Shown in pieces: positions 17,057-50,064 of a stretch of 64,000 nt of DNA. The notes below the pieces were generated by a model. It did no database searches and was not told the DNA's origin. It saw only the letters and a program-made list of their open reading frames with translations. The position numbers and the translations under genes were made by a program. The first letter of the stretch is position 1. Each line of letters starts with the position of its first letter. Source of the stretch: a virus; the IMG/VR virus record IMGVR_UViG_3300045918_000146, positions 1-64,000 of that record; one strand, given 5' to 3'.

Positions 17057-17839
17057 ATGAGCCTACAATACTTACATAAACCAGCTTATAGTAATTGGTT
17101 AATGCTAGACCCTAATGGTATAGAAATGTGCCGTTGTGCAGATAAACGAGCAAAATGGTACTTGGATCGAAATCTTGCAGATATAGTAAATGAAGATCCC
17201 CCAACCTTTAAACTTAAATTTGCACCAAATGGAAATGGGAATAAAGACGATGCTTATAGTTTGGCTCAAAAGTTTAATAGATGTGCAGTCTGTGGTACAG
17301 AGGACGAATTAACTAAGCATCATATCGTTCCGTATATGTATAGGAAGTGGTTTCCTACTAAATTAAAAGGACGATCAGCACATGATGTAGTCGTTATATG
17401 TGTAACATGTCATGAGAATTACGAAACTAGTGCAATGATATTAAAGAAGCAGATTAGTTTAGAAATCACAAATAACACACAATTAACTACTAAATTAACA
17501 GCTATACAATCACATAATAAGCGTATAGCACGTTTATGCTCTGCACTGTTAAAAGATAGCGGTTCTATTCCAAACAGTAGAAAAGATGAAATTATTTCAA
17601 ATATAACAGAACATTTAGGTTATAAGCCATCTATAACAGATCTTAATAATCTTATAGAAATAAGTAAAGCTCATACTAAATGTAATCAAGATCCAGGTAA
17701 AGAGATTGTTGAATGTGTGATAAAAGATAATAATCTTGACTGTTTCATACGAAGATGGAGACAGCATTTTATTGACATTGCATGTCCAATGTTCATGCCG
17801 GAACATTGGAGTATAGAAAGGAGAAGTAAAATTGAGTAA
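17057..17839 (+). CDS. HNH-type nuclease domain protein (EXD2-HNH-like)
   Basis: The 260-residue protein carries an HNH/treble-clef domain at about residues 78-125: CAVCG, LTKHHIVPYMYRKWFP, then VICVTCHENYE. The tandem His and the paired CxxC are the metal site. This arrangement resembles the HNH module in the exonuclease EXD2 and its phage and giant-virus relatives. The C-terminal half is helical and unassigned. It follows a promoter and overlaps the NADAR gene, so it is more likely an early accessory nuclease than a homing endonuclease. Cleavage activity is inferred. Confidence 0.75.
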   Translation: MSLQYLHKPAYSNWLMLDPNGIEMCRCADKRAKWYLDRNLADIVNEDPPTFKLKFAPNGNGNKDDAYSLAQKFNRCAVCGTEDELTKHHIVPYMYRKWFPTKLKGRSAHDVVVICVTCHENYETSAMILKKQISLEITNNTQLTTKLTAIQSHNKRIARLCSALLKDSGSIPNSRKDEIISNITEHLGYKPSITDLNNLIEISKAHTKCNQDPGKEIVECVIKDNNLDCFIRRWRQHFIDIACPMFMPEHWSIERRSKIE

Positions 17840-18308
17840 ATATGTATTGTTTTGGGGTGGTAATTTCAGCAATTGGGCAAAGAGCGAGTTCACCTATAAA
17901 GGTATAAAGTTCTATACAGCAGAAGGTGCATTTATGTGGGAGAAATCTGTCTGTTTTGGCGATGTTGAAAACGCAAATGCAATATTAAAGATAAAGCAAC
18001 CAGATGTTCAAAAACAACTAGGTAGATGTATATCTGGCTATAACGAAGAAGTTTGGGCAAATGTTAGGTATAGAGTAATGTTAGACGTATGCCGGGAGAA
18101 ATTTACACAGAATAGAAAATTACTAACTGAATTACTTAATACAGGAAGTAAAATTATCGTTGAAGCGAGTCCATATGATACAATCTGGGGAATAGGACTT
18201 GGTGTAGAAGATCCGCGTGCATTAGACGAAACACAATGGCTGGGTCAAAACCTATTAGGTAAGGTTTTAATGGAACTAAGATCTGAATTTGTTACTAGCT
18301 TAGAGTGA
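17832..18308 (+). CDS. NADAR family ADP-ribose N-glycosidase (YbiA-like)
   Basis: A full-length NADAR protein of 158 residues. FWGGNFSNW, YTAEGAFMWEKS and SPYDTIWGIGLG follow the family layout. NADAR enzymes cleave ADP-ribose from N-glycosidic linkages, including ADP-ribosylated guanine in DNA made by DarT-type toxins, and some act in riboflavin breakdown. In a phage, reversal of host DNA ADP-ribosylation is the most attractive role, but it is not proven here. The start is TTG with AAAGGAG ahead of it, overlapping the HNH gene by 8 bases. Confidence 0.85.
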   Translation: MSKYVLFWGGNFSNWAKSEFTYKGIKFYTAEGAFMWEKSVCFGDVENANAILKIKQPDVQKQLGRCISGYNEEVWANVRYRVMLDVCREKFTQNRKLLTELLNTGSKIIVEASPYDTIWGIGLGVEDPRALDETQWLGQNLLGKVLMELRSEFVTSLE

Positions 18309-18327: not shown

Positions 18328-18540
18328 ATGAAAAAAATTAATGAATTAAACCTTAAAAAAAGTAATGAAGTCAATTTAACTGATTGCTCTAAAGGGCAAA
18401 TCATTGATTGGTATCATACTCATACATCAGGGTCACATATACCTAATGAGATATTGGCTCCAAGCCATGCTGCTTTTAAAGAATGGTTCAATGATGTGCA
18501 TACTCTCGCGACAGAAATTTTAGAGTCTGTTAAACAATGA
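18328..18540 (+). CDS. Hypothetical protein (70 aa)
   Basis: ATG start with AGGAT upstream. It opens MKKINELNLKK, loosely like the capsid-targeting N termini nearby. The middle contains DWYHTHTSGSHIPNEIL, a His-rich loop. It overlaps the next gene by ATGA. Confidence 0.6.
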   Translation: MKKINELNLKKSNEVNLTDCSKGQIIDWYHTHTSGSHIPNEILAPSHAAFKEWFNDVHTLATEILESVKQ

Positions 18541-18881
18541 GAATTTCCGATATAACGAATGAAAAATCTATAGACGAGGTTAATAACGATCTTAATAACG
18601 ATCTTAATATCTTAATTAAAGACTTAACAGATATTAAACAGCATATACCAGAACTTATTAAAGTACATGGCTACGAAGAAGCAAGAGAAATGATTCTATT
18701 ATTAACCAATAAAGTACCTGATCCAATAACTCATTATTATGTATTTTGGTACAAAACAACAGCGAAATTATTAAATAAGTATAGAAACCTTAAAGATCAA
18801 ATAGAAAATAAGATTAATTCTGGCGTCAATGAAGGAATAAACCTCGCACAAGTCAAATATGACGCTCTACAGTGTATTTGA
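18537..18881 (+). CDS. Helical protein with capsid-targeting-like start (114 aa)
   Basis: The N terminus MRISDITNEKS fits the M-[RK]-x-x-[ED]-[IF] pattern shared by many genes here. The remainder is predicted all-helical, with a duplicated NNDLN near residue 20. ATGA-coupled to the gene at 18328. Possibly an internal head protein. Confidence 0.6.
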   Translation: MRISDITNEKSIDEVNNDLNNDLNILIKDLTDIKQHIPELIKVHGYEEAREMILLLTNKVPDPITHYYVFWYKTTAKLLNKYRNLKDQIENKINSGVNEGINLAQVKYDALQCI

Positions 18882-18933
18882 TGTACAGTTAATCTCTACA
18901 TATTAGTGAACTACTACGGCCCTAAAGGGTACT

Positions 18934-18946
18934 GCGGGCTTGCCGC
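18934..18946. other. GC-rich hairpin in intergenic leader
   Basis: GCGG-GCTTG-CCGC is a 4-bp stem with a 5-base loop inside a locally GC-rich patch that also contains CCCTAAAGGG. It may be a weak terminator for the unit ending at 18881. The U-run is missing. Confidence 0.3.
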
Positions 18947-18947
18947 C

Positions 18948-18983
18948 TAAATGACTAAATTCGCATAAATGACTAAATTCGCA
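18948..18983 (+). repeat. Two tandem copies of an 18-bp unit
   Basis: TAAATGACTAAATTCGCA is repeated exactly twice head to tail, followed by a degenerate third start (TAAATAACTAATATG). It directly abuts the candidate late promoter of the gene at 19011 and could be a binding site for a regulator. Confidence 0.85.
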
Positions 18984-18989
18984 TAAATA
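18983..18989 (+). promoter_or_regulatory. Candidate T4-type late promoter (ATAAATA)
   Basis: CGCATAAATAA lies 28 bases before the start at 19011 and begins within the third, degenerate repeat unit. Confidence 0.5.
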
Positions 18990-19010
18990 ACTAATATGTA
19001 GGGGTTATAT

Positions 19011-20459
19011 ATGCGAATTAAGGAAATATACGAAGCTGTTAGTAAGAAAATATTAGTTATCTACCCTGGGAGATTCCAACCGTTTCATAAAGGACACTAT
19101 GCGGTATATCAACATCTGTGTGAGAAATACGGAGAGGGTAACGTAGTTGTAGTAACATCAAATAAAGTAGATCCACCTAGATCACCGTTTGATTTTGGTG
19201 AGAAAATGACTATGATGACACTAACTGGTGTAAATTCAAATGCTATAGTACAAGATGCACAACCATACCAGGCTAAAGAATTAGTTGCTAAATACGATCC
19301 AGATTCTACGATTTTAATATTTGCTGTATCAGAAAAAGATATGGCCGAAGATCCTAGATTTCAATTTAAACCAAAAAAAGATGGCTCTCCTAGTTATTTC
19401 CAACGTTTACCTGACCAACTTAACAAAGCCAAGCCACTAAAATATCACGGGTACATTGCTACGGTCCCAACATTTAATTTCGAAGTATTGGGTCAACCTG
19501 CTAATAGTGCAACACAAATACGTGCCCAATTTGCTAATGCAGATGAAGCTACACAAAAAGCAATAGTAACTGACTTATTTGGAAAATTTAGTACTAGTGT
19601 ATTAAATATAATGCAACGTAAATTAATTATTCAAATTGAATCTATTTACACAGACTTAGTCACAATGCCCGCTTCGGATCTGCAACAAATTAACAAAACA
19701 TTAACAGAAATAAATAATGTCGCATTGACAGGTAATAATAAAAAACCATATGAATTACTAAAACAGTTAAACACGTATATTAATATCATACCTAATCAAA
19801 GATCTGACCAGTTAACTGAATCAATACTAACTATATTTAATAGAGCTATTAAATGTGCAGCACAACTACAGGTTGAGAATTTTGAAAAAGCAGTATTGCT
19901 AAGTGATAATAGTCAAGTATTTCATCCAACTAATGCACAAAAAGCTCATCATACAGTTAAAGAAGCAATAGACGCAGAAACTAATGATAAACGTCAATTA
20001 TTATATCGTACTAATACAGTTATATCAGGATTCCCTAAAGGTACTAAAGTTAGGCGTGTATCAGGATCAAATCGTATGTATGAAGTAATGCAAGATGGTA
20101 AAGTTATAAAGGTTATTCCATTAAGTTTAACTCAGATAACTCCTATATTAATAAGCGGAAATTTAATTGATGGAGAAGTGAAAAACACAAATATCACGTT
20201 ACCTATAAACAGTGTTCGTGAATCCACTACATCCAGTAAAGTATATTACTTCATTAATGTAGATAACTTATTAACAAAGGATCCAAACTTATCATCGGCG
20301 CATCTTAAAGCAAAAGGACTAAGATGTACACAAACTGGGGAATGGTTTTTACCTACAGATACCGAAAACGAAAATAAAACCCTGTTTTTAAGTCAGTTAA
20401 AGCACATAGAAAATATATGTCAAACAAAAGCAAAAAGATGGCATCCAAAAGCTAAATAA
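19011..20459 (+). CDS. Nucleotidyltransferase (NMN adenylyltransferase-like) with capsid-targeting-like start
   Basis: The 482-residue protein begins MRIKEIYEAVS, like a T4 capsid-targeting sequence. A nucleotidyltransferase domain follows (about 12-185): LVIYPGRFQPFHKGHYAVY contains the HxGH site at 26-29, and PANSATQIRAQF resembles the ISSTxIR motif. This family includes NMN adenylyltransferases of NAD synthesis and cytidylyltransferases, so the substrate is uncertain. The C-terminal 290 residues are not enzyme-like and hold short phi-x-E sites (TVKEAID, SVRESTT), possible prohead protease cuts. The enzyme may be packaged and injected. Confidence 0.75.
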   Translation: MRIKEIYEAVSKKILVIYPGRFQPFHKGHYAVYQHLCEKYGEGNVVVVTSNKVDPPRSPFDFGEKMTMMTLTGVNSNAIVQDAQPYQAKELVAKYDPDSTILIFAVSEKDMAEDPRFQFKPKKDGSPSYFQRLPDQLNKAKPLKYHGYIATVPTFNFEVLGQPANSATQIRAQFANADEATQKAIVTDLFGKFSTSVLNIMQRKLIIQIESIYTDLVTMPASDLQQINKTLTEINNVALTGNNKKPYELLKQLNTYINIIPNQRSDQLTESILTIFNRAIKCAAQLQVENFEKAVLLSDNSQVFHPTNAQKAHHTVKEAIDAETNDKRQLLYRTNTVISGFPKGTKVRRVSGSNRMYEVMQDGKVIKVIPLSLTQITPILISGNLIDGEVKNTNITLPINSVRESTTSSKVYYFINVDNLLTKDPNLSSAHLKAKGLRCTQTGEWFLPTDTENENKTLFLSQLKHIENICQTKAKRWHPKAK

Positions 20460-20467
20460 GATTAAGA

Positions 20468-20474
20468 CTAAATA
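20468..20474 (+). promoter_or_regulatory. Candidate T4-type late promoter (CTAAATA)
   Basis: GACTAAATACATATA, one mismatch from ATAAATA, lies 37 bases before the 1,209-residue gene. Confidence 0.4.
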
Positions 20475-20504
20475 CATATACATTATTAAGGATCTAATAG
20501 AATT

Positions 20505-23500
20505 ATGAAGTTTACAGATATAATACCCGAAACACAACAACTAGATGAATTAACCGATGCACAAAAGTATCGTATAGCCCAACTTAATGATGTGGGACAG
20601 AGAATGATAGACGTAAATACCACATTTAATGATGCTAAGAAATTTAACGACAAGGATACGCTATTAGCCGCTAAAAGTAAGTTGGCACAGCTTGCAAAAT
20701 TAAAAGCTAGCATAGAATCACAACCAGTTGACGAAGATATAGAAGAAGTAGTAACATTGGATATATATGATCAAAAGATTGATTCTTTAGAAACAGCAAT
20801 AGTTAAAATGAAAAACCAATTAGCAAATCTACAATCTCCGGTGACCGAAGGAATTAACATGACAAGCAAGCAACTATCAGAAGAACTTACACGTATTAAG
20901 TTAACAATGCTGGATTGTAATAAGATAATTATGCAAGCTAAAAAGGATCTAGATGAGAGTTTAGAATTAGAGGCTCGCGAAAAATTAGAAGAATTAACAC
21001 ATGTAAAAAATCAACTAGAAGCAAGTATTACTAATGAATCTGTGGGGCTTACTGGTCCGGTTGATCGTAAGGCCGGCGCAAAGGCATTTGAGAAGCTAAT
21101 TAAAAAATTCCCTAGTTTAGCTCCTATATATAAAAAACAAGCCGCTAATTTAGGTATACAATTAAAAACACCACGTGTCACAGAAGTTAATGCAAAGGCA
21201 GCAAAGAAAGCAGTTTTGGAATATATCACACGATATCCTAAATTGCGAGAAAAGGTTTTAGCTGAAGAAGGTGGACGTTGGGCATATAATCAGTTTGGGG
21301 AACCAAAAGAAGTTCCTGTACATGCAGAAGTTGCTCGTATAGCTGCAAATAAAAACAAGTATAATAACAACGTATTTAACACCGGTGACGAAGATACAAA
21401 CGTATTCTCTCCTAATAGAGAAGAATCGGAAATTGACGAAAACACCGATATTATTAATCAATATTCAACATTTGCTGCATGGAATTTAGCTGTAAAGCAT
21501 AAAGGATTACGTATTGAAGTACATGCAAATTCATATGGTCCAGACGAGTCAGATCCATATAAAACAGCTTATGCTGTAAATAAAGCTGACGATGTACTTG
21601 GATGCTGCACTGTTCACGAAAACGGCGAAACAGAAGCAGTACTATTTGAGTCGCCGAGCGAATTCGAATCATGGATGCATCAAAATGATAACCAGGTTGA
21701 CGAAGGATCAGACGAAGATGTAATGTCATCAGCTAACTTAGTGTCTGGTCCAGGTGCTCGTGCAGATGAGCCAAAATCACGCGATGATCAAATGATGGAC
21801 CAACATTTTAAACATTCGTATCCTGGTAAATGGAATAAAGAAAACAGTGTAGATCAAGAGACCAAAATTACAGAAGGCGAAAATACCAGAGCACAACTCG
21901 ATGTTACTCGACTTGATCGACGCGAATTAGCTCGATTACAAGACGAGTTAGAAAATGTCGGATTAGTAATAGGAAAAGATTTCTTTATTAAATCGGGTGG
22001 CCCAGCTTGGATTACTTATGCTGCATATGATAGAGAACCATTAGAAATTCTAATGGACTATGGGGTTGGAGAGGAAGAATTAAACGAAGCACCCCGAGAC
22101 CACGCAGTGTCATTTAACGATGATCCTTTAAAAACTGATATTAAATGGTCTATTGATCACGCAAAGTCTAAATTATCATCGAGCATAACTTACGAAGATG
22201 TTAAAACAGCATGGTTACGTGTATTCCCTAATAGTTCTGTTCAAGTTAACAAAGCTGCTTTAAGTAAAGATGCTTATACTTTTAAATTCCGTTTAGCTAA
22301 AGATAAAACAGAAGTTTCTAGTCAAATTATGGATAATGATCCATTAAATTATACTGGAATATTAGAAAATAATACATTTAAAGAATGGTCTGGTTCAATG
22401 CTGGTCAAGCCTCCAGTAGGATCCTATTTAGCGTTTGGTAGTGCTAAGTTTATGAAGAAAACTATTAAGGATGTAACAGTAGAAAAATTACTAAAACGTT
22501 TCGAACAAGTGAAAAAATTTGTATCTGATCATGCCGATGAATTACATAATATAAAGTTTGACATTAACGATAAATTAGATAGTATAAACGAGAGTAAAAT
22601 AGATAATCCGTGGATAGGAATAGGATTTGACATAAGATCAACTAAGTTATGGCCAGCGGAAATATTCGAATCTAAACATCCAGACTTTGCTCGGTGGATT
22701 TCAGCTTATAGAAAAAATTTAACAATGCCAACGGCAGGAAAAAAATGTATTCTTGCAATAGCAATTTGTGATACTTCTGATATCACAGTATTACATGGCG
22801 TTGCAGAATATGTAGGAGAAACTAATACAGATTATATATTAATAAATAGCACTGGAGAACACGAGTACTCTAAAAAGGATCAACTAGTATTTAACTCAAA
22901 GAAGGCGTTTGAACATTTTACAACAATGATTGCTCTAAAATTTGGAGAAAGTACATTAGCTGTTAAACAACAACCTGTAATGGAAGCCTATGGTAAACCA
23001 AACAAAGAAGCCGCAAAAGCAAAGTGGATGACAGAATTTGAGAAGAGTGTAACACGCCTTAATTCAAAATTATCAGGTAAGATAGAATGGGATTCTGCAA
23101 CTTATTTCTTTAACAGTGGTAAAAATCCAACTGATGCTGCCGAGCAATATGTAAACAGTAGATTAGATGAATCTATACCAGAAGAAGATTTTCTTGGCCC
23201 AGATATGACAGTCGACAACGACCCGGTAACTTCTTATCCTAGAAAAACCGTCGAGAATTACAGTGATGAGGAATTAGCGATAGAATGGGATAAACCAAGT
23301 TTTCCTAAAAAGTCCGGAGAGCGTAACACATATCGTAACATAGACGACGATGGCGACGATTATACTGAGTGGTCAATGCGTCAGGGAGAAATGGGGCGTA
23401 TAGGCGTTATTGATGAATATACTGCACAGCCTGGCGTATTGAATCCTTCAAGTAAGAAATTAGATGCTATGTTTGCACAACAAGATAAAGATTATAATGA

Positions 23501-24134
23501 ACGTAAAGGTCATAATATGATTCCTAATTTTAAAAAGGATAATAAGAATTTATCTGACGAAGAGGAAATTTTTTATGAAAATGCAACAAGCGGCGCATGT
23601 TCTTCTGGATCAGTTGCTACTGTAGTAGCTCCATTAGGCGCCACACAACGTAGAACTAAAAAATCTAAGAGCACGTATGCAAATTCAGATTCGAACTATA
23701 AATCTAGTGCTATTGGACAAGGTATATACGAAAGTAGTGTCGCAGAGGAAGAGACTAATTGCGTAATGATGGATATCGCAGCAGCATGTAGTAGAGCTTA
23801 CCCAGATATTGAACCAGATACATATTTAATTCAGTACACTAATAATAACAGCGAATTAAATATAAGGTTGCTTGATAAAGCATGTCGTATTAACCATAAT
23901 GTGGACTATCATACATACGTGAATATGTTTTGGCAAGAACAAACAGCTTCGACTGCATTAGATGAGGGTATTGAAAAATCAGATTACGATAAATATATGG
24001 ATCATTATAATTACAGTCACGAAACTAAATCAAAGAAAAAACCACAGCAAAAGAAGCCATGGGATCAAAAGCAAAAAAGTGAAACAGCATCTGATATTAT
24101 AGCAAGACGTAATCTAGAAAAGAAATTAAAGTAG
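20505..24134 (+). CDS. Giant internal virion-type protein with repeated phi-x-E sites (1,209 aa)
   Basis: It begins MKFTDIIPETQQLDEL, a capsid-targeting-like N terminus. Residues about 15-70 and 120-180 are two related helical-hairpin repeats. More than a dozen short acidic sites of the form hydrophobic-x-Glu-Ser/Gly/Asn are spread along it, such as PVTEGIN, ITNESVG, KITEGEN, SINESK, RLDESIP, IYESSV and ALDEGIE. They resemble T4 prohead protease cleavage sites. The segments between them differ in composition, and the tail is Lys/Gln-rich. I recognise no enzyme domain. It is probably a packaged polyprotein cut during head maturation; the protease gene is not in this window. Confidence 0.7.
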   Translation: MKFTDIIPETQQLDELTDAQKYRIAQLNDVGQRMIDVNTTFNDAKKFNDKDTLLAAKSKLAQLAKLKASIESQPVDEDIEEVVTLDIYDQKIDSLETAIVKMKNQLANLQSPVTEGINMTSKQLSEELTRIKLTMLDCNKIIMQAKKDLDESLELEAREKLEELTHVKNQLEASITNESVGLTGPVDRKAGAKAFEKLIKKFPSLAPIYKKQAANLGIQLKTPRVTEVNAKAAKKAVLEYITRYPKLREKVLAEEGGRWAYNQFGEPKEVPVHAEVARIAANKNKYNNNVFNTGDEDTNVFSPNREESEIDENTDIINQYSTFAAWNLAVKHKGLRIEVHANSYGPDESDPYKTAYAVNKADDVLGCCTVHENGETEAVLFESPSEFESWMHQNDNQVDEGSDEDVMSSANLVSGPGARADEPKSRDDQMMDQHFKHSYPGKWNKENSVDQETKITEGENTRAQLDVTRLDRRELARLQDELENVGLVIGKDFFIKSGGPAWITYAAYDREPLEILMDYGVGEEELNEAPRDHAVSFNDDPLKTDIKWSIDHAKSKLSSSITYEDVKTAWLRVFPNSSVQVNKAALSKDAYTFKFRLAKDKTEVSSQIMDNDPLNYTGILENNTFKEWSGSMLVKPPVGSYLAFGSAKFMKKTIKDVTVEKLLKRFEQVKKFVSDHADELHNIKFDINDKLDSINESKIDNPWIGIGFDIRSTKLWPAEIFESKHPDFARWISAYRKNLTMPTAGKKCILAIAICDTSDITVLHGVAEYVGETNTDYILINSTGEHEYSKKDQLVFNSKKAFEHFTTMIALKFGESTLAVKQQPVMEAYGKPNKEAAKAKWMTEFEKSVTRLNSKLSGKIEWDSATYFFNSGKNPTDAAEQYVNSRLDESIPEEDFLGPDMTVDNDPVTSYPRKTVENYSDEELAIEWDKPSFPKKSGERNTYRNIDDDGDDYTEWSMRQGEMGRIGVIDEYTAQPGVLNPSSKKLDAMFAQQDKDYNERKGHNMIPNFKKDNKNLSDEEEIFYENATSGACSSGSVATVVAPLGATQRRTKKSKSTYANSDSNYKSSAIGQGIYESSVAEEETNCVMMDIAAACSRAYPDIEPDTYLIQYTNNNSELNIRLLDKACRINHNVDYHTYVNMFWQEQTASTALDEGIEKSDYDKYMDHYNYSHETKSKKKPQQKKPWDQKQKSETASDIIARRNLEKKLK

Positions 24135-24135
24135 A

Positions 24136-24609
24136 ATGAGATTCTATGAATTTGTAAGTGATATGCCTATATATGATTCTGAATTAGAACATCTTAAAGA
24201 ATGGTCAGTAGAACATAACAGAAACTTTACTGAATCAGTAGATGACGAAAAAGTTACAGAGATAAAGGACTTCTTTAAAAGATACATAATAGACCCAAGT
24301 AGTTTAACTATAGGTGAAAAATATTTTCCAATTGAACTTGTTACTAGGCCATTCGCTAATTTAATTGAGATGACAATATCAAATCATCCACTTACATACT
24401 TAGGAGATCACGATGAGAAATTTATCTTTAAAGGGGAAAAATTACAAATTAAAGTGCCAATCTATAAAGATTTAGTAAGTGATTTTGGACCCTTTTTAAT
24501 GTTAACTACAATATATACCACCATTGCAGAATGCGAGCATTTTAACATGATATTCTTAATGCAGTTTAAAGGTAGATGGAAAATACAACAGAAGGAGTTT
24601 TTGGTATGA
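24136..24609 (+). CDS. Putative internal head protein (157 aa)
   Basis: Starts one base after the giant gene's stop. The N terminus MRFYEFVSDMP is close to the T4 capsid-targeting sequence MKTYQEFIAEA, with FTESVDD as a possible cleavage site near residue 34. The rest is an alpha/beta domain without recognised motif. It overlaps the next gene by 4 bases. Confidence 0.65.
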   Translation: MRFYEFVSDMPIYDSELEHLKEWSVEHNRNFTESVDDEKVTEIKDFFKRYIIDPSSLTIGEKYFPIELVTRPFANLIEMTISNHPLTYLGDHDEKFIFKGEKLQIKVPIYKDLVSDFGPFLMLTTIYTTIAECEHFNMIFLMQFKGRWKIQQKEFLV

Positions 24610-24944
24610 GATCACATGAATTTATTTTTGAAGATGAAAACGACGAGAACCCGTATGCACGAGTAAACGACGGTCAACCACATTATAAGTTTAATGCTGT
24701 TCCGAAGGAAAAGCCGTCAAAACTACAAGATTTATGCAGACTAAATAATGTAGCAGTTAGAGATATCGTATATAATCCTGATAAAGAAATGTGCCAAATA
24801 ATGCAGATTGGCGAAAAAGGGTTTAAAGTATTTAATTACGAAATACCTGAAGATAAAGTCGAATGGTACGAATTAAAGATGCTAACTAAGCAAGATAAAT
24901 ACGGAAAACTAGTTCCACTAATAGAGAAAACAAATGACAAATAA
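24606..24944 (+). CDS. Putative internal head protein (112 aa)
   Basis: I chose the ATG at 24606 because AAGGAG lies 8 bases upstream and it creates an ATGA overlap. A longer start 30 bases earlier is rejected. The N terminus MRSHEFIFEDENDENP is a good capsid-targeting match followed by an acidic stretch. The remaining 90 residues look like a small beta-rich domain. Confidence 0.7.
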   Translation: MRSHEFIFEDENDENPYARVNDGQPHYKFNAVPKEKPSKLQDLCRLNNVAVRDIVYNPDKEMCQIMQIGEKGFKVFNYEIPEDKVEWYELKMLTKQDKYGKLVPLIEKTNDK

Positions 24945-27900
24945 TACAAATATGAGGAAAATACTTGAGACTATCGACAAGTTTTCTGCTAAGCCAGCTA
25001 TTAATGAGAATAAAACGCCTAGCACTAAACAACTAACTTCTAGGGTTAGTAGGATTAACGAATCCACATCACCACAACTTATAGCAAAATATACAAAAGA
25101 CGAAGATATATATTATCTATGGAGAACAGGAGAATACACTTACCAACTGGATACTAAAGACTTTAAGAAAATAGCTAAATGGACAGAAAAAGATTTAGAG
25201 GATGTGAAAGCAGAGATCAATTCAAAAGGGTATAATGAGGATGAGCTCAGCGAAAACGCAGATAATAAGTTTGTTGGGACAGTATACCATTTAGACGAGG
25301 AAGATAAATCTAACGGCCATATGGAAGACTGCGACTGCGATGAATGTGTACGTAGATACGGATTTAATAGTGAAATAAAAGAAGATCAGACTGATAATAT
25401 TTTAGAACCGTTATCAAAAGCTATCTACATATTAGGTAATAGTAATGCATATTCAAAACAAGCAAAAGATATATTTAGCTTAATTCATCATATGTTAAGA
25501 ACACGTTTAATGAAGAACGATATGGAAGGCTTTACACAGGCGTATAATGATTTACAAGGACGGTACCCAGATGAATTTGATGAATTTATAGATACAGCAT
25601 TTGAAAATGCTGGGCTAACACATCATGCCACAATAGAGGATTTTATAGCACTTATGTCTGAAAATAACGGAATAAGTAGTTCTGGAGACGTTAGTATCGA
25701 AGAATCTATCGACGATATAAAAGAATCGTTAGTAGCTGCATTTGAAGATTATGTAAGCAATGAAAAGTACGACTATCAAAAACTGTACCCAAAGAAAGTT
25801 ACTAAACCGACAACCGATAAGAAAAAACCTAAAATAGAAAAAGCAGTTGATCCTAAATTAATTCAAGATAACTTAACTGAAAGTAGGTCAGAATTACTAG
25901 CTAACTCAATTATTGACCATATTATGGTTGATCATCCAGATCTTATTTCGTATTACGGCAAAAAATATGTAGATGCAGCTATTAAGCGTATAGCAGATAC
26001 TTACGCAAACGCATCAAACCAAATATCTAAAGATATTAATAGTTTAGTAGATCAAGTAAAACATGAACTACAATGTAATATGAAACAAATAGACGAAACG
26101 GGTGCATTAACAACACTAACACCGTCAGGGGAGCGTCCTTGGAAACCATCTTTTGACGTACCTAAAAAGAAAAATCCTGCTATAGGATCTCTTGCGTTTG
26201 AAAAATTATCCAAATATGAGCAAGATAAGTTACGTAAGATAAGTGATGCTCGTGCCGAAAAACGTTATAAAATAAAAGAAGGTGCTGGCGCAAGTACAGA
26301 AGCTGTAGCGAATGCTATAGCAGCACGTTTAGATAGTAGACATCCTGAAATATTCACACGATACGGAGTAGAATATGTTTATACTGCAATTGAAGAAGTA
26401 GCATCTTTTCATGCAGGAACAGAAGAATTAGGTACTAGTGATATTAGCATTATGGTCCGCGAAGTTATTAAAGAGTTAGAGAGTAAGACAGACGCATTAG
26501 ACGAATCTATTAAGGAATATACTGTATATTGTTCGCAGTGCGGTGGGGAATTTAAAAATAATGTACCAACAGGTTTCAGTCACTGTAGAGATCATGCTGG
26601 TCAACAAAACTTAGATGGGGGTGTCTATAAAGGCGACATGGATTTAGATGAGATGTCAATCAATAGAACAAAAAAGCCATCAGAGAATCGCGATCTGTGG
26701 GACAAAATAAATCGTAAGGGCGTGGTACCAAGCATTGATCGTGTCCGCTATACTGATCTATCTCATGAAGGATTAGAAGGTCCGTTCCGCGCAAAGAATG
26801 GCCAAGTATTATATTACGATCCAAAAGAAGGTAAGTATTACGATCGAGATAAAGATATGTATGTTGATCACGGATTAGACGAATCAACAAATAAAAAACC
26901 TAAATCAGACATATTTAATTTACCCATTGCATATACAGAAGATAAAGTTACAGGCGTAAAGCAAACAGATACACCATTTTTCGTTTATCAAAATCGCAAA
27001 GTTGGTTTATCTGGAAGATCAACTAAATCATTAAAAGAAGCAAAAGAATTTATACAGAATCAAACTACTCCAACTAAACATGCAGCAATACAACGACCAA
27101 ATAAGCGTTTTGCAACACGAGACATAGTTGATTCGCGAGAGTTCATTGAATATGTCACCGAATTTCGTAGAAAATTAGGAAACAGTGTTTCTAATAGATA
27201 TGAATCCACTGACGTTAAAAAAATATGTTCAAGTATATTTGCTAGGGCAGAACTAAGAGAATCGGCAAATCTAACTACTGCAAGGAAACAATTTATTGAC
27301 AAATTTACGAGTCGTGATCAATTTGACCAAATGAATATTGCAAAAGGAAAAATGGCTTCTGTTATCGAAACTATGGTTGTTGGCAATTATATAGAATTAT
27401 GGGGGTTTGTAAAGCCCAAAAAGATAACTCAAATTGAATATAAAGATAATGGCGAAATTGAATTTATTATATTTAACAATGATACATCGACTAGATATCC
27501 TAGGATTGATGCTGCATCTTACCAAGGAGAATCGATTGATCATAGTATTTTTCTTAAGGATCAACCTTCTGCAGAGCAAACTATTGTTATGCTCATGCTG
27601 GCAATACCGCACGGATTTAAACCAAAATATAACATTACCGATTACGCTGATCCAACCGATTATTCTAAAGATAATTCTAAAAAGTTAATTCCATCAAAAA
27701 TCAATGAAACAAAAAGTTTATCCAAAAAAGTAAAAATCGTTTCTGGCCAATATTCCGGGCAAACTGGTTGGATAAGAGAAATCAAACACGGCGCCTTTAA
27801 AGGCGCACCAAAGAGATATTATGTCGACTTGGATAACGGAGATCAAGCAAATAACTTGTTAGGAACAGCTCTACGTCTAATTAAAGAGCCTAGCAATGAA

Positions 27901-28629
27901 CCTATTGTCAACGAAGAATCAATTGCTGACGAGTTGTACCGTTTGAAAAGACAATTAAATTCTGCATACGATAAAGCAGTAAGAAGTAAGTTTGAGAACG
28001 ATGTAGAAAATGAACAAGTTCGTATATTAAGAAGAAAAATTCAAGAGTTAAAAGGTGATATAGAACTTCGTGCTCGTGACCAAATGCAAGAGGGCGCACG
28101 TGATATTATCTCTCAAAAGTTAAAACAAATTAATGACAGAAAGAAACCGTGGCCTACACGCCAGCATAGCTCGATGCAATCTGCACTTGATAAACTGGGC
28201 GAAAAACTTGCCGATATTAAGATCGACTTTAATATGGATGATAAAAAGCCAGTTGAAGAAGATGCTCCTATTGATCAGCAAGTTGCACCATTAGTAACTA
28301 CAGGAGCACCTACGCAAACAACTGCCACTAAGCCTACAGGAACTATACCGCCAGGGTCTCCGGCTACTACGCAAACCCAACAAAGTAACACGTCTACTCA
28401 ACCACCGGCAGCAGGATCTACAACACCTAACCCAGCAACCAATGCTAGTACTACACCTACAAATGCTCCTGCAGGAACAACGCAAGCTCCTGCATTAACG
28501 CCAGGGCAATCTCTAGTAGCAGGATTACAAAAAGTAGCAAGCACTTATACTGGTGCTGACTCTAGTGCTCTTAAATCAGGCATAAATACGTTAGCAAATC
28601 AAGTAAAACTACCGCCAGGAATAAAATGA
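24934..28629 (+). CDS. Giant internal virion-type protein with duplicated domain and Pro/Thr tail (1,231 aa)
   Basis: It overlaps the previous gene by 11 bases. A second ATG at 24952 would give MRKILETIDKF, like its neighbours. Two homologous modules lie at about residues 315-380 and 455-520 (HPDLISYYGKKYVDAAI; HPEIFTRYGVEYVYTAI ... ELGTSDIS). I associate this module with large proteins of marine T4-like phages. A CxxC...C zinc-like segment follows (YCSQCGGEF), then a KOW-like segment (KIVSGQYSGQTGWIREI) near 930. The last 110 residues are Thr/Pro/Ala/Gln-rich. Many phi-x-E-S/G sites (RINESTS, NLTESRS, KIKEGAG, ALDESIK) suggest maturation cleavage. Confidence 0.7.
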   Translation: MTNNTNMRKILETIDKFSAKPAINENKTPSTKQLTSRVSRINESTSPQLIAKYTKDEDIYYLWRTGEYTYQLDTKDFKKIAKWTEKDLEDVKAEINSKGYNEDELSENADNKFVGTVYHLDEEDKSNGHMEDCDCDECVRRYGFNSEIKEDQTDNILEPLSKAIYILGNSNAYSKQAKDIFSLIHHMLRTRLMKNDMEGFTQAYNDLQGRYPDEFDEFIDTAFENAGLTHHATIEDFIALMSENNGISSSGDVSIEESIDDIKESLVAAFEDYVSNEKYDYQKLYPKKVTKPTTDKKKPKIEKAVDPKLIQDNLTESRSELLANSIIDHIMVDHPDLISYYGKKYVDAAIKRIADTYANASNQISKDINSLVDQVKHELQCNMKQIDETGALTTLTPSGERPWKPSFDVPKKKNPAIGSLAFEKLSKYEQDKLRKISDARAEKRYKIKEGAGASTEAVANAIAARLDSRHPEIFTRYGVEYVYTAIEEVASFHAGTEELGTSDISIMVREVIKELESKTDALDESIKEYTVYCSQCGGEFKNNVPTGFSHCRDHAGQQNLDGGVYKGDMDLDEMSINRTKKPSENRDLWDKINRKGVVPSIDRVRYTDLSHEGLEGPFRAKNGQVLYYDPKEGKYYDRDKDMYVDHGLDESTNKKPKSDIFNLPIAYTEDKVTGVKQTDTPFFVYQNRKVGLSGRSTKSLKEAKEFIQNQTTPTKHAAIQRPNKRFATRDIVDSREFIEYVTEFRRKLGNSVSNRYESTDVKKICSSIFARAELRESANLTTARKQFIDKFTSRDQFDQMNIAKGKMASVIETMVVGNYIELWGFVKPKKITQIEYKDNGEIEFIIFNNDTSTRYPRIDAASYQGESIDHSIFLKDQPSAEQTIVMLMLAIPHGFKPKYNITDYADPTDYSKDNSKKLIPSKINETKSLSKKVKIVSGQYSGQTGWIREIKHGAFKGAPKRYYVDLDNGDQANNLLGTALRLIKEPSNEPIVNEESIADELYRLKRQLNSAYDKAVRSKFENDVENEQVRILRRKIQELKGDIELRARDQMQEGARDIISQKLKQINDRKKPWPTRQHSSMQSALDKLGEKLADIKIDFNMDDKKPVEEDAPIDQQVAPLVTTGAPTQTTATKPTGTIPPGSPATTQTQQSNTSTQPPAAGSTTPNPATNASTTPTNAPAGTTQAPALTPGQSLVAGLQKVASTYTGADSSALKSGINTLANQVKLPPGIK

Positions 28630-28637
28630 AAAAAATA

Positions 28638-28644
28638 ATAAATA
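28638..28644 (+). promoter_or_regulatory. Candidate T4-type late promoter (ATAAATA)
   Basis: AATAATAAATACAC lies 26 bases before the ATG at 28664 and ahead of AAGGAG. Confidence 0.45.
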
Positions 28645-28663
28645 CACAACAAGGAGTTAAATA

Positions 28664-29302
28664 ATGTTTCTTTTTGAACTGTTTGAGACACAAACTACTA
28701 AGAATAATTTTATAAATATTACGCCAAATACGTTGCGTACATATACTCCTCTAATTAATCAATATAAGAAAATGTACGATATTCAAGATGATATTGACTT
28801 TGCGTATGATGCAAGCTCTCACCAGTTAAAAGCCATCACAGACAAGGCAAATCCTTTTATATCAGATTTAAAAATTAGAACATCTCCTGAATATATGAAT
28901 AGAAGTCGTCTATCCGAAGATGAACCTGTTGTTTCTTTAGATCCAGCAGTAGATACATTAGTTGATCAATGGATTGCCAAGTTATCTGCACAAACACCAA
29001 CACCAACAGCTCGTTCAGTGTCTAGTACTATAGCAAGTGTATTACATCTGAAAGCTAAAATCTCATATAATTCTGCATTAACTGTTGTTGTACAAAAACT
29101 AAGAGATTTAGGAACTGATATATTAGAGGACGAATTAAACGAAACAATAGACTACCAAAAATCTTATAGGTCAGCAATAGCACGGGCGTCTGTTGCAAAG
29201 TCGGAAGCAGAAAAGATACATTGGCGCAAATTAGCTGATAGTTATAAGATGATAGCAACTAAACAGCAACAAAGATTAAAAGAACATTACCTGGACCGTT
29301 AG
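28664..29302 (+). CDS. Putative internal head protein (212 aa)
   Basis: N terminus MFLFELFETQTTK is a looser version of the capsid-targeting pattern. It has a mid region VSLDPAVDTLVDQW, a Thr/Pro linker (QTPTPTARS) and a helical, basic C terminus. LEDELNETIDYQ could be a cleavage site. Strong AAGGAG precedes the ATG. Function unknown. Confidence 0.6.
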   Translation: MFLFELFETQTTKNNFINITPNTLRTYTPLINQYKKMYDIQDDIDFAYDASSHQLKAITDKANPFISDLKIRTSPEYMNRSRLSEDEPVVSLDPAVDTLVDQWIAKLSAQTPTPTARSVSSTIASVLHLKAKISYNSALTVVVQKLRDLGTDILEDELNETIDYQKSYRSAIARASVAKSEAEKIHWRKLADSYKMIATKQQQRLKEHYLDR

Positions 29303-47169: not shown

Positions 47170-47277
47170 ATGAGAGCGCACGAATTTATTGACCCATACG
47201 ACTTCCGACAACGTATCAAAGATAACTGGAAATTCCTCACTGCACCCCAAATTGGATCTGTCATCTATGGGCAATGA
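47170..47277 (+). CDS. Short capsid-targeting-like protein (35 aa), possibly truncated
   Basis: MRAHEFIDPYDFRQRIKDNW is a good capsid-targeting-like start. TGA ends it after 35 codons, but the same frame stays open and protein-like for 18 more codons to 47334. Either a tiny protein or a gene truncated by a premature TGA. Confidence 0.45.
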   Translation: MRAHEFIDPYDFRQRIKDNWKFLTAPQIGSVIYGQ

Positions 47278-48600: not shown

Positions 48601-48685
48601 CTATAATGATTAGAGCTTTTCTCTTAGGTAGTGAAGATTATTTAGGTTTCATTTGTTCGAAAAGCAAGATAAAAGGAGTTCAATA

Positions 48686-49256
48686 TGAGAGTAAATGAAA
48701 TAGTTCAACCGTTAGACGAGTATAAAATAGTTGTTACGCTAGAAAAACCTTAGAAGAAAAAATTTATCATTGCGGGAAATATCCCGTAAAGTCGAAACTG
48801 GAGAAATAGTGTTATCTGAAGAAGATATAAAAGAAGGACAAAAATCATTAGGTGAATTAAATCAAGCACTATATAGCGATATGTGAAAGCCTTTATCATA
48901 AGATTGATACCCTTAAACGACAATTAGACAACGATAATATTGCTTTGGTTGAAATGTATTTAGGAAACCTGTTACTTACCGCTACCGAAGATGAAATAAT
49001 ACGAGATGCAAACTCAAGTGATGCTGAGACTATTATTAATTTGAGAAAATATCACAGTAGAATGAAAGCAAACGTAAAAGATGTTCGCTTATATGTTTTA
49101 AAAAAGAAAGAATGTAGCGGATTATCAAATGTCGATCTGTTAAAAAGACTTAGTCATATTGAAGCTAAAATACTACAAATGTGTGAACAAGCATGTGTTC
49201 AGCATTACCAAGATATGACCGGAAGGGTTAGTTTTCCAGGAAAGAAACAAGGATGA
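48686..49256 (+). pseudogene. Frameshifted gene with capsid-targeting-like start
   Basis: Strong AAAAGGAG precedes ATG at 48686. The first frame gives MRVNEIVQPLDEYKIVVTLE and stops at 48754. Coding-like sequence continues in other frames: TLEEKIYHCGKYP, then RKVETGEIVLSEEDIKEGQ, then CESLYHKIDTLKRQLDNDN. This joins an open frame of 100 further codons to TGA at 49256. Three one-base shifts (near 48747, 48790 and 48880) would restore about 185 residues. The first lies in an A-run. The last part (from TTG 48945) could still be translated alone. Confidence 0.6.
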
Positions 49257-49368: not shown

Positions 49369-50064
49369 ATGAAACTTAACGAGTTTTTGTCTGTGTCAAA
49401 TAGTCAAGTGTGCGGCGGCTCTGATTATTTATGGAATTGCTACCCAAATGCACGTTATATGGATATTGCCGATATCGATGGTGCCGAGATTGGATCTTGT
49501 GTGTTTAATACCAACACACAAGAAGTATACGAAGCAGAAGCCTATGTATATAACGACGATATTGCATTTAGGTGGCAAAATGCAGCGTATACTAATGCTT
49601 ATTTTGAAGAATCTAACAAAAGAGAATTAGATCCGGACAACGCATACGACGATGTACAATTTACAGATATTGATGATGAACAAGACTTCTTAGCTGTTTT
49701 ATTTAAAATCGTACATAAATCGTATGTACATACACATTATCACGACGTAGAGACAACGGATACATGTTGCGGGTCATGTACTGGTAAATGTGATAATTCA
49801 AAAAAGGATTCCAACGAAGCAGACGCTATCCCAGTAGTATTAAAAGACGTTACTAATTATACAAAATACGAAGTTAAGTTATCCGTTACACATCGTTTTA
49901 GTATTCTCGCATGTAATATGGAAGAAGCTCTTATTAAAGCTAGAACATTTACAAATAGTATGTCTCCTGCTAAAGATTGGGGTTCCAGAGTATGTTGGGA
50001 AGATAAATACATATCAAAAGAAGAAGTAGCTCGTACTTTAGCATACGATCATATTGAGGAATAA
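49369..50064 (+). CDS. Acidic Cys-rich protein with capsid-targeting-like start (231 aa)
   Basis: I chose the ATG at 49369 after AGAAAGGA; a longer TTG start would begin at the -35 box. It begins MKLNEFLSVSNSQ. A CCGSCTGKC cluster near residue 140 could bind metal. The C-terminal 70 residues (VKLSVTHRFSILACNMEEA) look like a separate alpha/beta domain. It is expressed from its own promoter, so capsid packaging is less certain than for the 19-29 kb proteins. Confidence 0.65.
   Translation: MKLNEFLSVSNSQVCGGSDYLWNCYPNARYMDIADIDGAEIGSCVFNTNTQEVYEAEAYVYNDDIAFRWQNAAYTNAYFEESNKRELDPDNAYDDVQFTDIDDEQDFLAVLFKIVHKSYVHTHYHDVETTDTCCGSCTGKCDNSKKDSNEADAIPVVLKDVTNYTKYEVKLSVTHRFSILACNMEEALIKARTFTNSMSPAKDWGSRVCWEDKYISKEEVARTLAYDHIEE

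Follow-up and report, generated by a model that had tools for sequence, protein, structure and literature searches.

Why should a run of consecutive virus genes, coding for otherwise unrelated proteins, begin with nearly the same six amino acids? The question was raised by a 64,000-base stretch of DNA (the window), which comprises bases 1-64,000 of the 79,029-base IMG/VR virus record IMGVR_UViG_3300045918_000146 and in which a first-pass annotation, made from the sequence alone, had proposed that the start M-[RK]-x-x-[ED]-[FI] marks a set of packaged, injected proteins. The record is a fragment, and its last 15 kb were examined as a separate locus. The analysis makes it highly probable that proteins bearing this N-terminal leader are head cargo, that is, that they are packed into the head, relieved of the leader and delivered, two large members (here called poly1 and poly2) being cut into several products. 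The DNA polymerase of the record is nearest to those of Sinorhizobium phage Phosso (47%), Agrobacterium phage Atu_ph07, Vibrio phage 2.275.O and 121Q-like jumbo phages, which by sequence are jumbo members of the T4 superfamily.

The leader motif, its register and its occurrence in relatives

The strict motif opens five consecutive genes between 18537 and 24944, and the six starts that had been listed from 18537 to 28664 were all present (Table 1). The start MRKILE at 24952 exists as a second start, six codons into the gene at 24934, and resembles MSDMKKLIESID of the nearest relative, but it is off the motif at positions 5 and 6; MFLFEL at 28664 fits a wider form of the motif and not the strict one. 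As a consensus, the proposed pattern was real but too narrow, for F or N at position 2 and L or V at position 6 also occur. Among the starts that had been listed elsewhere in the window, the one at 49369 (MKLNEF) belongs to a real gene, but the other two are not full genes: the frame at 47170 (MRAHEF) has only 35 codons and is without a clear ribosome site, and the frame placed at 48686 (MRVNEI) truly starts at 48685 and has only 22 codons, yet a good ribosome site, AAAAGGAG. Beyond the window, an extra member was found at record position 64428 (MRYQEILE/A, where the slash, here and below, marks a predicted cut); it codes for 97 aa and is paralogous to the gene at 18537.

In the record itself, the motif opened 7 of ~140 genes (binomial P ~7e-8, where P values here and below are indicative only, since genes were called with a simple script and the loci are mutually related). 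The comparison was extended to 80 IMG/VR loci, on contigs of ~9 kb to 354 kb, that were obtained by a search with the NMN/NaMN adenylyltransferase (NMNAT) encoded at 19011. Over the record and these related loci, the strict motif stood at 63 of 1,566 gene starts (4.0%) versus 19 of 7,824 internal methionines (0.24%), a difference of ~17-fold, and within genes starting M[RK] the dimer [ED][FI] occupied positions 5-6 in 63 cases, whereas any other position had it in about 4.

After the motif, residue 8 or 9 is often Glu, preceded two places back by I, L or V, which gives a site of the T4 gp21 type, [ILV]-x-E/. When non-NMNAT genes were chosen on positions 1-6 only, Glu was found at position 9 in 32% and at position 8 in 10%, versus 5-8% in other genes. 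Position 3, which was not a selection criterion, was hydrophobic in 79% of the non-NMNAT leader genes versus 43% of other genes. The T4 proteins used as a control were IPII and IPIII (MKTYQEFIAE/A), in which residues 4 and 7 are hydrophobic and residue 10 is Glu, and gp24 (MAKINELLRE/S). By T4 genetics, targeting depends mainly on residues 4 and 7 and processing on residues 8 and 10 (PMC9026906). The likeness to a capsid-targeting sequence (CTS) that had been suggested for these N termini was borne out in this comparison: the layout is that of the T4 CTS moved by one residue, it ends in a gp21-type Glu site, and unrelated proteins share it.

In the relatives, NMNAT and its neighbours are often leader-capped, and the block to which they belong is conserved, with ClpB on one side and DNA polymerase on the other. 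Few leader genes lie upstream of NMNAT; they are concentrated in the segment that begins with NMNAT itself (44 of 77 loci by the wide motif), takes in the six genes after it and stops at the polymerase. Leader genes also occur elsewhere in four larger contigs, where the number of strict matches per contig ranges from 3 to 16; the 16 matches of the richest, a 318-kb contig, include MRVNEVVTE/D, MRVNEVVNE/G and MKATEFLTE/K. The gp21 protease (PF03420) was detected in 11 of the 16 relative records searched and gp23 (PF07068) in 12, and a gp22-like scaffold gene is present at the head locus of relatives. The major capsid proteins of the relatives carry a predicted cut, LxE/[NS]A (ALNE/SATAG, MLAE/NASAG, QLVE/NATGG and YLSE/NATAG), of the same form as the leader sites and the internal sites described below. 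Synteny with Phosso and Atu_ph07 was considered and rejected: between ClpB and the polymerase these phages have different annotated genes, and no leader cluster was seen among the Phosso proteins examined.

Domains recognized in the relatives' cargo were PolyA_pol/CCA-adding, HD_4, NT5C, Zeta-like kinase and amidoligase. One 1,216-aa leader protein (L077:12640-16287) joins HD_4, a poly(A) polymerase/CCA-adding head and NT5C; by eye, its opening part resembles ParB (DGHHRWLAA). Lysine-rich proteins of ~68 aa (MKIYEVIGE/TTAGAIATVASPLGG...KKKKSKKKK; L055:15774-15974, L083:15422-15625 and L064:10305-10508) resemble T4 internal proteins. In the leader proteins at L008:17915-19681 and L135:4164-5063, the cargo starts VFHYTRVTTALKIL and VLFHYAGITSARDIL recall ADP-ribosyltransferases by eye, which Pfam did not confirm.

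The adenylyltransferase and the virion proteins of cultured cyanophages

Foldseek, with a match to NadD/NadM, and sequence searches, in which the nearest PDB sequences were archaeal NMNATs (1f9a/1ej2), agree that by homology the 19011 product is an NMNAT/NaMNAT, and NAD-forming activity is predicted. The enzyme has a nucleotidyltransferase fold with the motifs GRFxPxHxGH and SxTxIR. In its AlphaFold2 (AF2) model, residues 1-10 have a mean predicted local distance difference test (pLDDT) score of 51, and a strand begins at residue 13, where the fold reaches ~90. Three further sites are predicted (LTE270/S, VKE318/A and VRE404/S); all lie between modelled domains, those at 270 and 318 inside segments of pLDDT<50 and that at 404 between two such segments. 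Like catalytic residues, Glu8 is among the conserved positions (at least 90%) of 30 leader-bearing NMNAT homologues. The leaders of orthologues (MFVSELFE/G, MFISELFE/A, MRLYDLFE/N and MNLSELLE/D) directly precede the Rossmann strand (LVIYPGRFxPFHxGH), and a third orthologue group, counted with the leaderless one discussed below, has an ~88-aa extension that ends SLTE/A at the same junction. A leader was not found on the NMNAT orthologues of Microcystis phage Mel-JY01 and LR756508, and the cytidylyltransferases of PA5oct and P-HM1 showed no clear leader; in Methylophilales phage Melnitz, MKKFSEIIE/A precedes the cytidylyltransferase.

Two features lie close to this gene. A NADAR-domain protein (PF08719, 1.1e-43) is encoded at 17832-18308, three genes upstream of NMNAT, placing two NAD/ADP-ribose-related genes near each other. 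Short direct repeats (aaatgactaaattcgcat) together with CATAAATA occupy 18940-19000, just upstream of the NMNAT gene, and form a possible promoter region.

Virion mass spectrometry lists a cytidylyltransferase/NMNAT for S-CREM2 (ORF154; PMC10665884) and S-SCSM1 (ORF91; PMC9602691), and these papers cite S-CBWM1 and the estuarine S-SZBM1 for the same virion NMNAT. Both enzymes begin with T4-type leaders (S-SCSM1, MKSFLQFLKE/A; S-CREM2, MKNFSSFLTE/A), as do further S-CREM2 virion proteins (a SAM hydrolase, MKDFDSFLEE; gp13, MKDLHSFLTE; and a kinase, MKRFDAFLTE); undetected S-CREM2 neighbours were without such a leader. A T4-derived rule (hydrophobic residues at 4 and 7, Glu at 10) was matched by five open reading frames in the S-CREM2 and S-SCSM1 stretches examined, of which four encode virion proteins (P ~0.006 against a virion-protein share of ~19%), and by two in the scanned T4 stretch, IPII and IPIII. 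The S-SCSM1 NMNAT neighbours 89, 90, 92 and 93 are annotated virion proteins, yet they are without a clear leader; protein 93 has 66% identity over 56 aa to a domain of a protein that starts MKSQEFINE/A in a related contig. In S-CREM2 gp12 (L184:7704-10313), a Cas9-like nuclease reported from the virion, an apparent capsid-type leader, RFASFMAE/A, occurs ~17 residues after the annotated start. When the literature was searched in full text for capsid targeting together with cyanophage, a T4 review was all that came up, most subscription journals being outside the coverage.

The proposal of a packaged set that includes the adenylyltransferase is supported by a leader on unrelated proteins, by gp21 protease and gp23 in relatives, and by homologous NMNATs in the virions of S-CREM2 and S-SCSM1.

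Two predicted polyproteins and other features of the window

From their sequences, poly1 and poly2 look like polyproteins whose cleavage is predicted. Both are enriched in [IL]xE[AGS] (Table 1); no enrichment was seen in the two proteins for the control motifs [IL]xD, [IL]xK and [IL]xQ or for reversed forms, or for [IL]xE[AGS] in other large window proteins. Predicted sites in poly1 include VTE115/G, LDE151/S, ITE457/G, LNE528/A, INE696/S, VME827/A, LDE889/S, IYE1076/S and LDE1154/G; those in poly2, numbered from 24952, are INE37/S, LTE310/S, IDE382/T, IKE443/G, LDE518/S, LDE644/S, LRE770/S, INE919/T and MQE1047/G.

Table 1. Leader genes, predicted polyproteins and their modules in the window
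Feature	Position	Strand	Observation
114-aa protein, leader MRISDI	18537..18881	+	Paralogue at record position 64428
NMNAT, 482 aa	19011..20459	+	Pfam PF01467, 1.8e-9
NMNAT leader MRIKEIYE	19011..19034	+	Predicted cut after Glu8, 5 residues before first Rossmann strand
poly1, 1209-aa predicted polyprotein, leader MKFTDI	20505..24134	+	9 [IL]xE[AGS] vs 2.5 expected in shuffles, p=0.0005
poly1 module, residues 12-77, ends VDE77/D	20538..20735	+	blastp, 45% identity to L006:11359
poly1 module, residues 561-691, then INE696/S	22185..22577	+	blastp, 55% identity to L006:13904
poly1 module after FYE1025/NATSGACSSGSVATVVAPLG..RRTKKSK	23580..23732	+	Sequence likeness
157-aa protein, leader MRFYEF	24136..24609	+	Pfam, no match
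112-aa protein, leader MRSHEFIFE, predicted cut before D	24606..24944	+	Good ribosome site at start
poly2, 1231-aa predicted polyprotein, alternative start 24952 MRKILE/T	24934..28629	+	9 [IL]xE[AGS] vs 2.3 expected in shuffles, p=0.001
poly2 helical module, residues 311-382, between two sites	25882..26097	+	Related to module 444-518
poly2 helical module, residues 444-518, between IKE443/G and LDE518/S	26281..26505	+	Recurs in proteins of many other contigs
poly2 module, residues 595-638, then LDE644/S	26734..26865	+	PHROG 13298; present in KVP40-like Vibrio phages
poly2 KOW-like module, residues 920-979, starts at INE919/T	27709..27888	+	71% identical copy in another contig
212-aa protein, leader MFLFELFE, predicted cut before T	28664..29302	+	Same form as MFISELFE of NMNAT orthologues
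Frame MRVNEIVQPLDEYKIVVTLEKP, 22 codons	48685..48753	+	Behind good ribosome site; isolated leader or gene remnant
231-aa protein, start MKLNEFLS	49369..50064	+	6-residue motif fits; no Glu at 8-10; membership uncertain

Parts of poly1 and poly2 recur, differently arranged, in other contigs. In the nearest relative, the counterpart of poly1 residues 12-77 lies inside another protein and ends VAE/G there, and that of residues 561-691 sits in the poly2 counterpart; the module at 23580..23732 resembles a mature capsid protein start (E/NATAGAT..GNVA) and small basic, internal-protein-like proteins of relatives. Among GenBank phages and IMG/VR, whole-length homologues were absent or limited to a 44-aa module, and Pfam gave zero matches in poly1 and poly2 to known polyvalent domains (zincin MPTase, ArdC-N and MuF). 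When 264 non-redundant cluster proteins were compared, 128 of their 793 module boundaries lay within 6 residues of [IL]xE/[AGSNTD], versus 47.5 expected, and the D, K and Q analogues showed no excess at the same boundaries.

A different account of these data is that poly1 and poly2 are ordinary multidomain proteins, whose apparent sites are Glu-rich linkers and which enter the head uncut, as polyvalent proteins do. Reversed and non-canonical Glu motifs are indeed somewhat enriched at module ends, but the canonical motif has the largest excess (2.7-fold) and its D, K and Q analogues have none; we give this account perhaps one chance in four.

Two observations concern other parts of the record. 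The T4 late promoter octamer TATAAATA, which would have pointed to late expression, was not seen ahead of the leader genes; it is depleted across the whole window (4 observed versus 17.9 expected), which suggests selection against stray late-promoter sites. Beyond the window, at L001:2382-3794 (record 65381-66793), a protein with DUF7788 and DUF2828 has a vWA, TROVE-like appearance.

Proposed mechanism, rival readings and known systems

As head cargo, the leader proteins would be handled as follows. The leader of 8-10 residues (with a basic residue 2, hydrophobic residues 3 and 6 and a Glu as residue 8 or 9), as a helix, would join the prohead core during assembly; once the leader had been cut off behind its Glu by a gp21-type (S77) protease, the mature protein would remain in the head with the packed DNA and would pass into the host along with the genome. 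NMNAT would deliver an NAD-synthesizing activity at the first moment of infection, and this early supply of NAD might, speculatively, counter an NAD-depleting defence. Poly1 and poly2 would be string-of-domains precursors, loaded by one leader each and cut by the same protease into several small proteins, and the modules between sites would recombine among phages. Packaging of the leader proteins is well supported by homology; for this phage itself we infer that the proteins are packaged, cut and injected, and what each cargo is for, and injection, as distinct from packaging, would follow by analogy with T4.

Several observations weigh against this reading. A search of the 79-kb record for an S77 protease gave zero matches, and a capsid gene was not seen in the record. 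The cleavage Glu is missing in some members (24136 and 49369). Other NMNAT orthologues are leaderless and begin at the fold itself (MNHLVIYPGR, MDLGKKIFVIYPGR); because it is absent from these, the leader is not part of the NMNAT fold and, as the orthologues compare, is an optional add-on. The authors of the cyanophage studies caution that NMNAT could be carry-over in CsCl preparations. As for the internal sites, Glu-rich linkers alone give a weaker boundary excess (Ex[ILVMF], 295 versus 184); over all leader proteins of the relatives the sites are 1.4-fold enriched versus 1.2-fold in other genes, and a stricter internal-site motif was no commoner in leader proteins than in other genes. Because the enrichment over all leader proteins is slight, the internal-site excess belongs to large proteins and not to the leader class.

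It is also conceivable, though we think it improbable, that the leader is a true prohead-core tag on proteins that are core or scaffold parts, like T4 gp22, gp67 and gp68, which shape the head and are then degraded rather than delivered as effectors. Similar N termini occur on T4 gp24 and gp22, and gp21 cuts T4 core proteins at many sites (PMC5694885), as poly1 and poly2 appear to be cut. NMNAT, however, retains an intact conserved enzyme fold, the cargo of relatives holds the enzyme domains named above, and relatives have a gp22-like scaffold gene at the head locus.

We regard it as very improbable that the shared start reflects translation-initiation or codon bias, or is a relic of gene duplication, with no targeting role. 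AAA and AGA second codons are common, and the 18537 and 64428 genes are paralogues, but amino acids are constrained at fixed positions while synonymous codons vary (as at positions 5 and 6), and this constraint reaches positions 3, 8 and 9 and is common to the N termini of otherwise unrelated proteins. Equally improbable is docking elsewhere, as at the replication machinery, for although the cluster adjoins the genes for DNA polymerase and the clamp, the leader is missing from the polymerase and from other replication genes, leader genes of relatives also lie far from the polymerase, and the T4-type version is on S-CREM2 virion proteins encoded elsewhere.

If the head-cargo reading is true, the first nine residues of a phage protein would tell whether it is loaded into the particle, and vague hypothetical genes would become a readable list. 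The reading would also supply a mechanism for a recurrent finding so far unexplained, that cyanophage virions contain NMNAT, kinases and SAM hydrolase, and it suggests that polyproteins, too, are substrates of capsid proteases, which could let phages deliver many proteins with few genes. The reading is open to test in existing virion mass-spectrometry data via cut N termini. We lean, by a narrow balance, towards a wider proposal: a cargo system spanning the T4 superfamily, in which one leader of 8-10 residues would load enzymes (NMNAT, CCA-adding enzyme, HD hydrolase, nucleotidase, kinases and SAM hydrolase) and polyproteins, and in which capsid-protease sites would also mark module exchange, giving each particle an evolvable first-response kit.

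The idea of a tag and of packaged enzymes is already known from T4. New here are the shifted register and its spread over a large group of uncultured jumbo phages, the link of the leader to the NMNATs of cyanophage virions, and the predicted protease-cut polyproteins. Like the T4 CTS of IPI, IPII, IPIII and Alt, the leader is short, N-terminal, basic at residue 2 and carried by unrelated proteins, with hydrophobic residues three apart and then, three residues on, a Glu as gp21 site, and protease and gp23 are present in relatives of the window phage. It differs in a register one residue shorter (3-6-9 versus 4-7-10), in mostly having Glu or Asp at position 5 and sometimes Glu8, and in having far more client genes in some genomes, NMNAT and predicted polyproteins among them. 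The cyanophage virion NMNATs share the homologous enzyme domain, a T4-type leader on both examined and, in S-SCSM1, neighbours that are also virion proteins; in the available portions, however, those papers infer packaging from mass spectrometry and name no signal, and the window enzyme is longer, with further predicted sites. Polyvalent proteins (P1 DarB and N4 vRNAP; PMC5512222) are likewise large, multidomain, mosaic and predicted to be head-delivered conflict proteins, but theirs is often a built-in metallopeptidase or uncut entry, whereas here we predict a leader of the T4 type and, between modules, sites for the prohead protease. In the processed head and ejection proteins of phiKZ and SPN3US (PMC5694885), a gp21-related protease also cuts after Glu and propeptides have been proposed to target; those propeptides are mostly >100 residues, with an AxE motif in SPN3US, whereas the leaders of the window have 8-10 residues.

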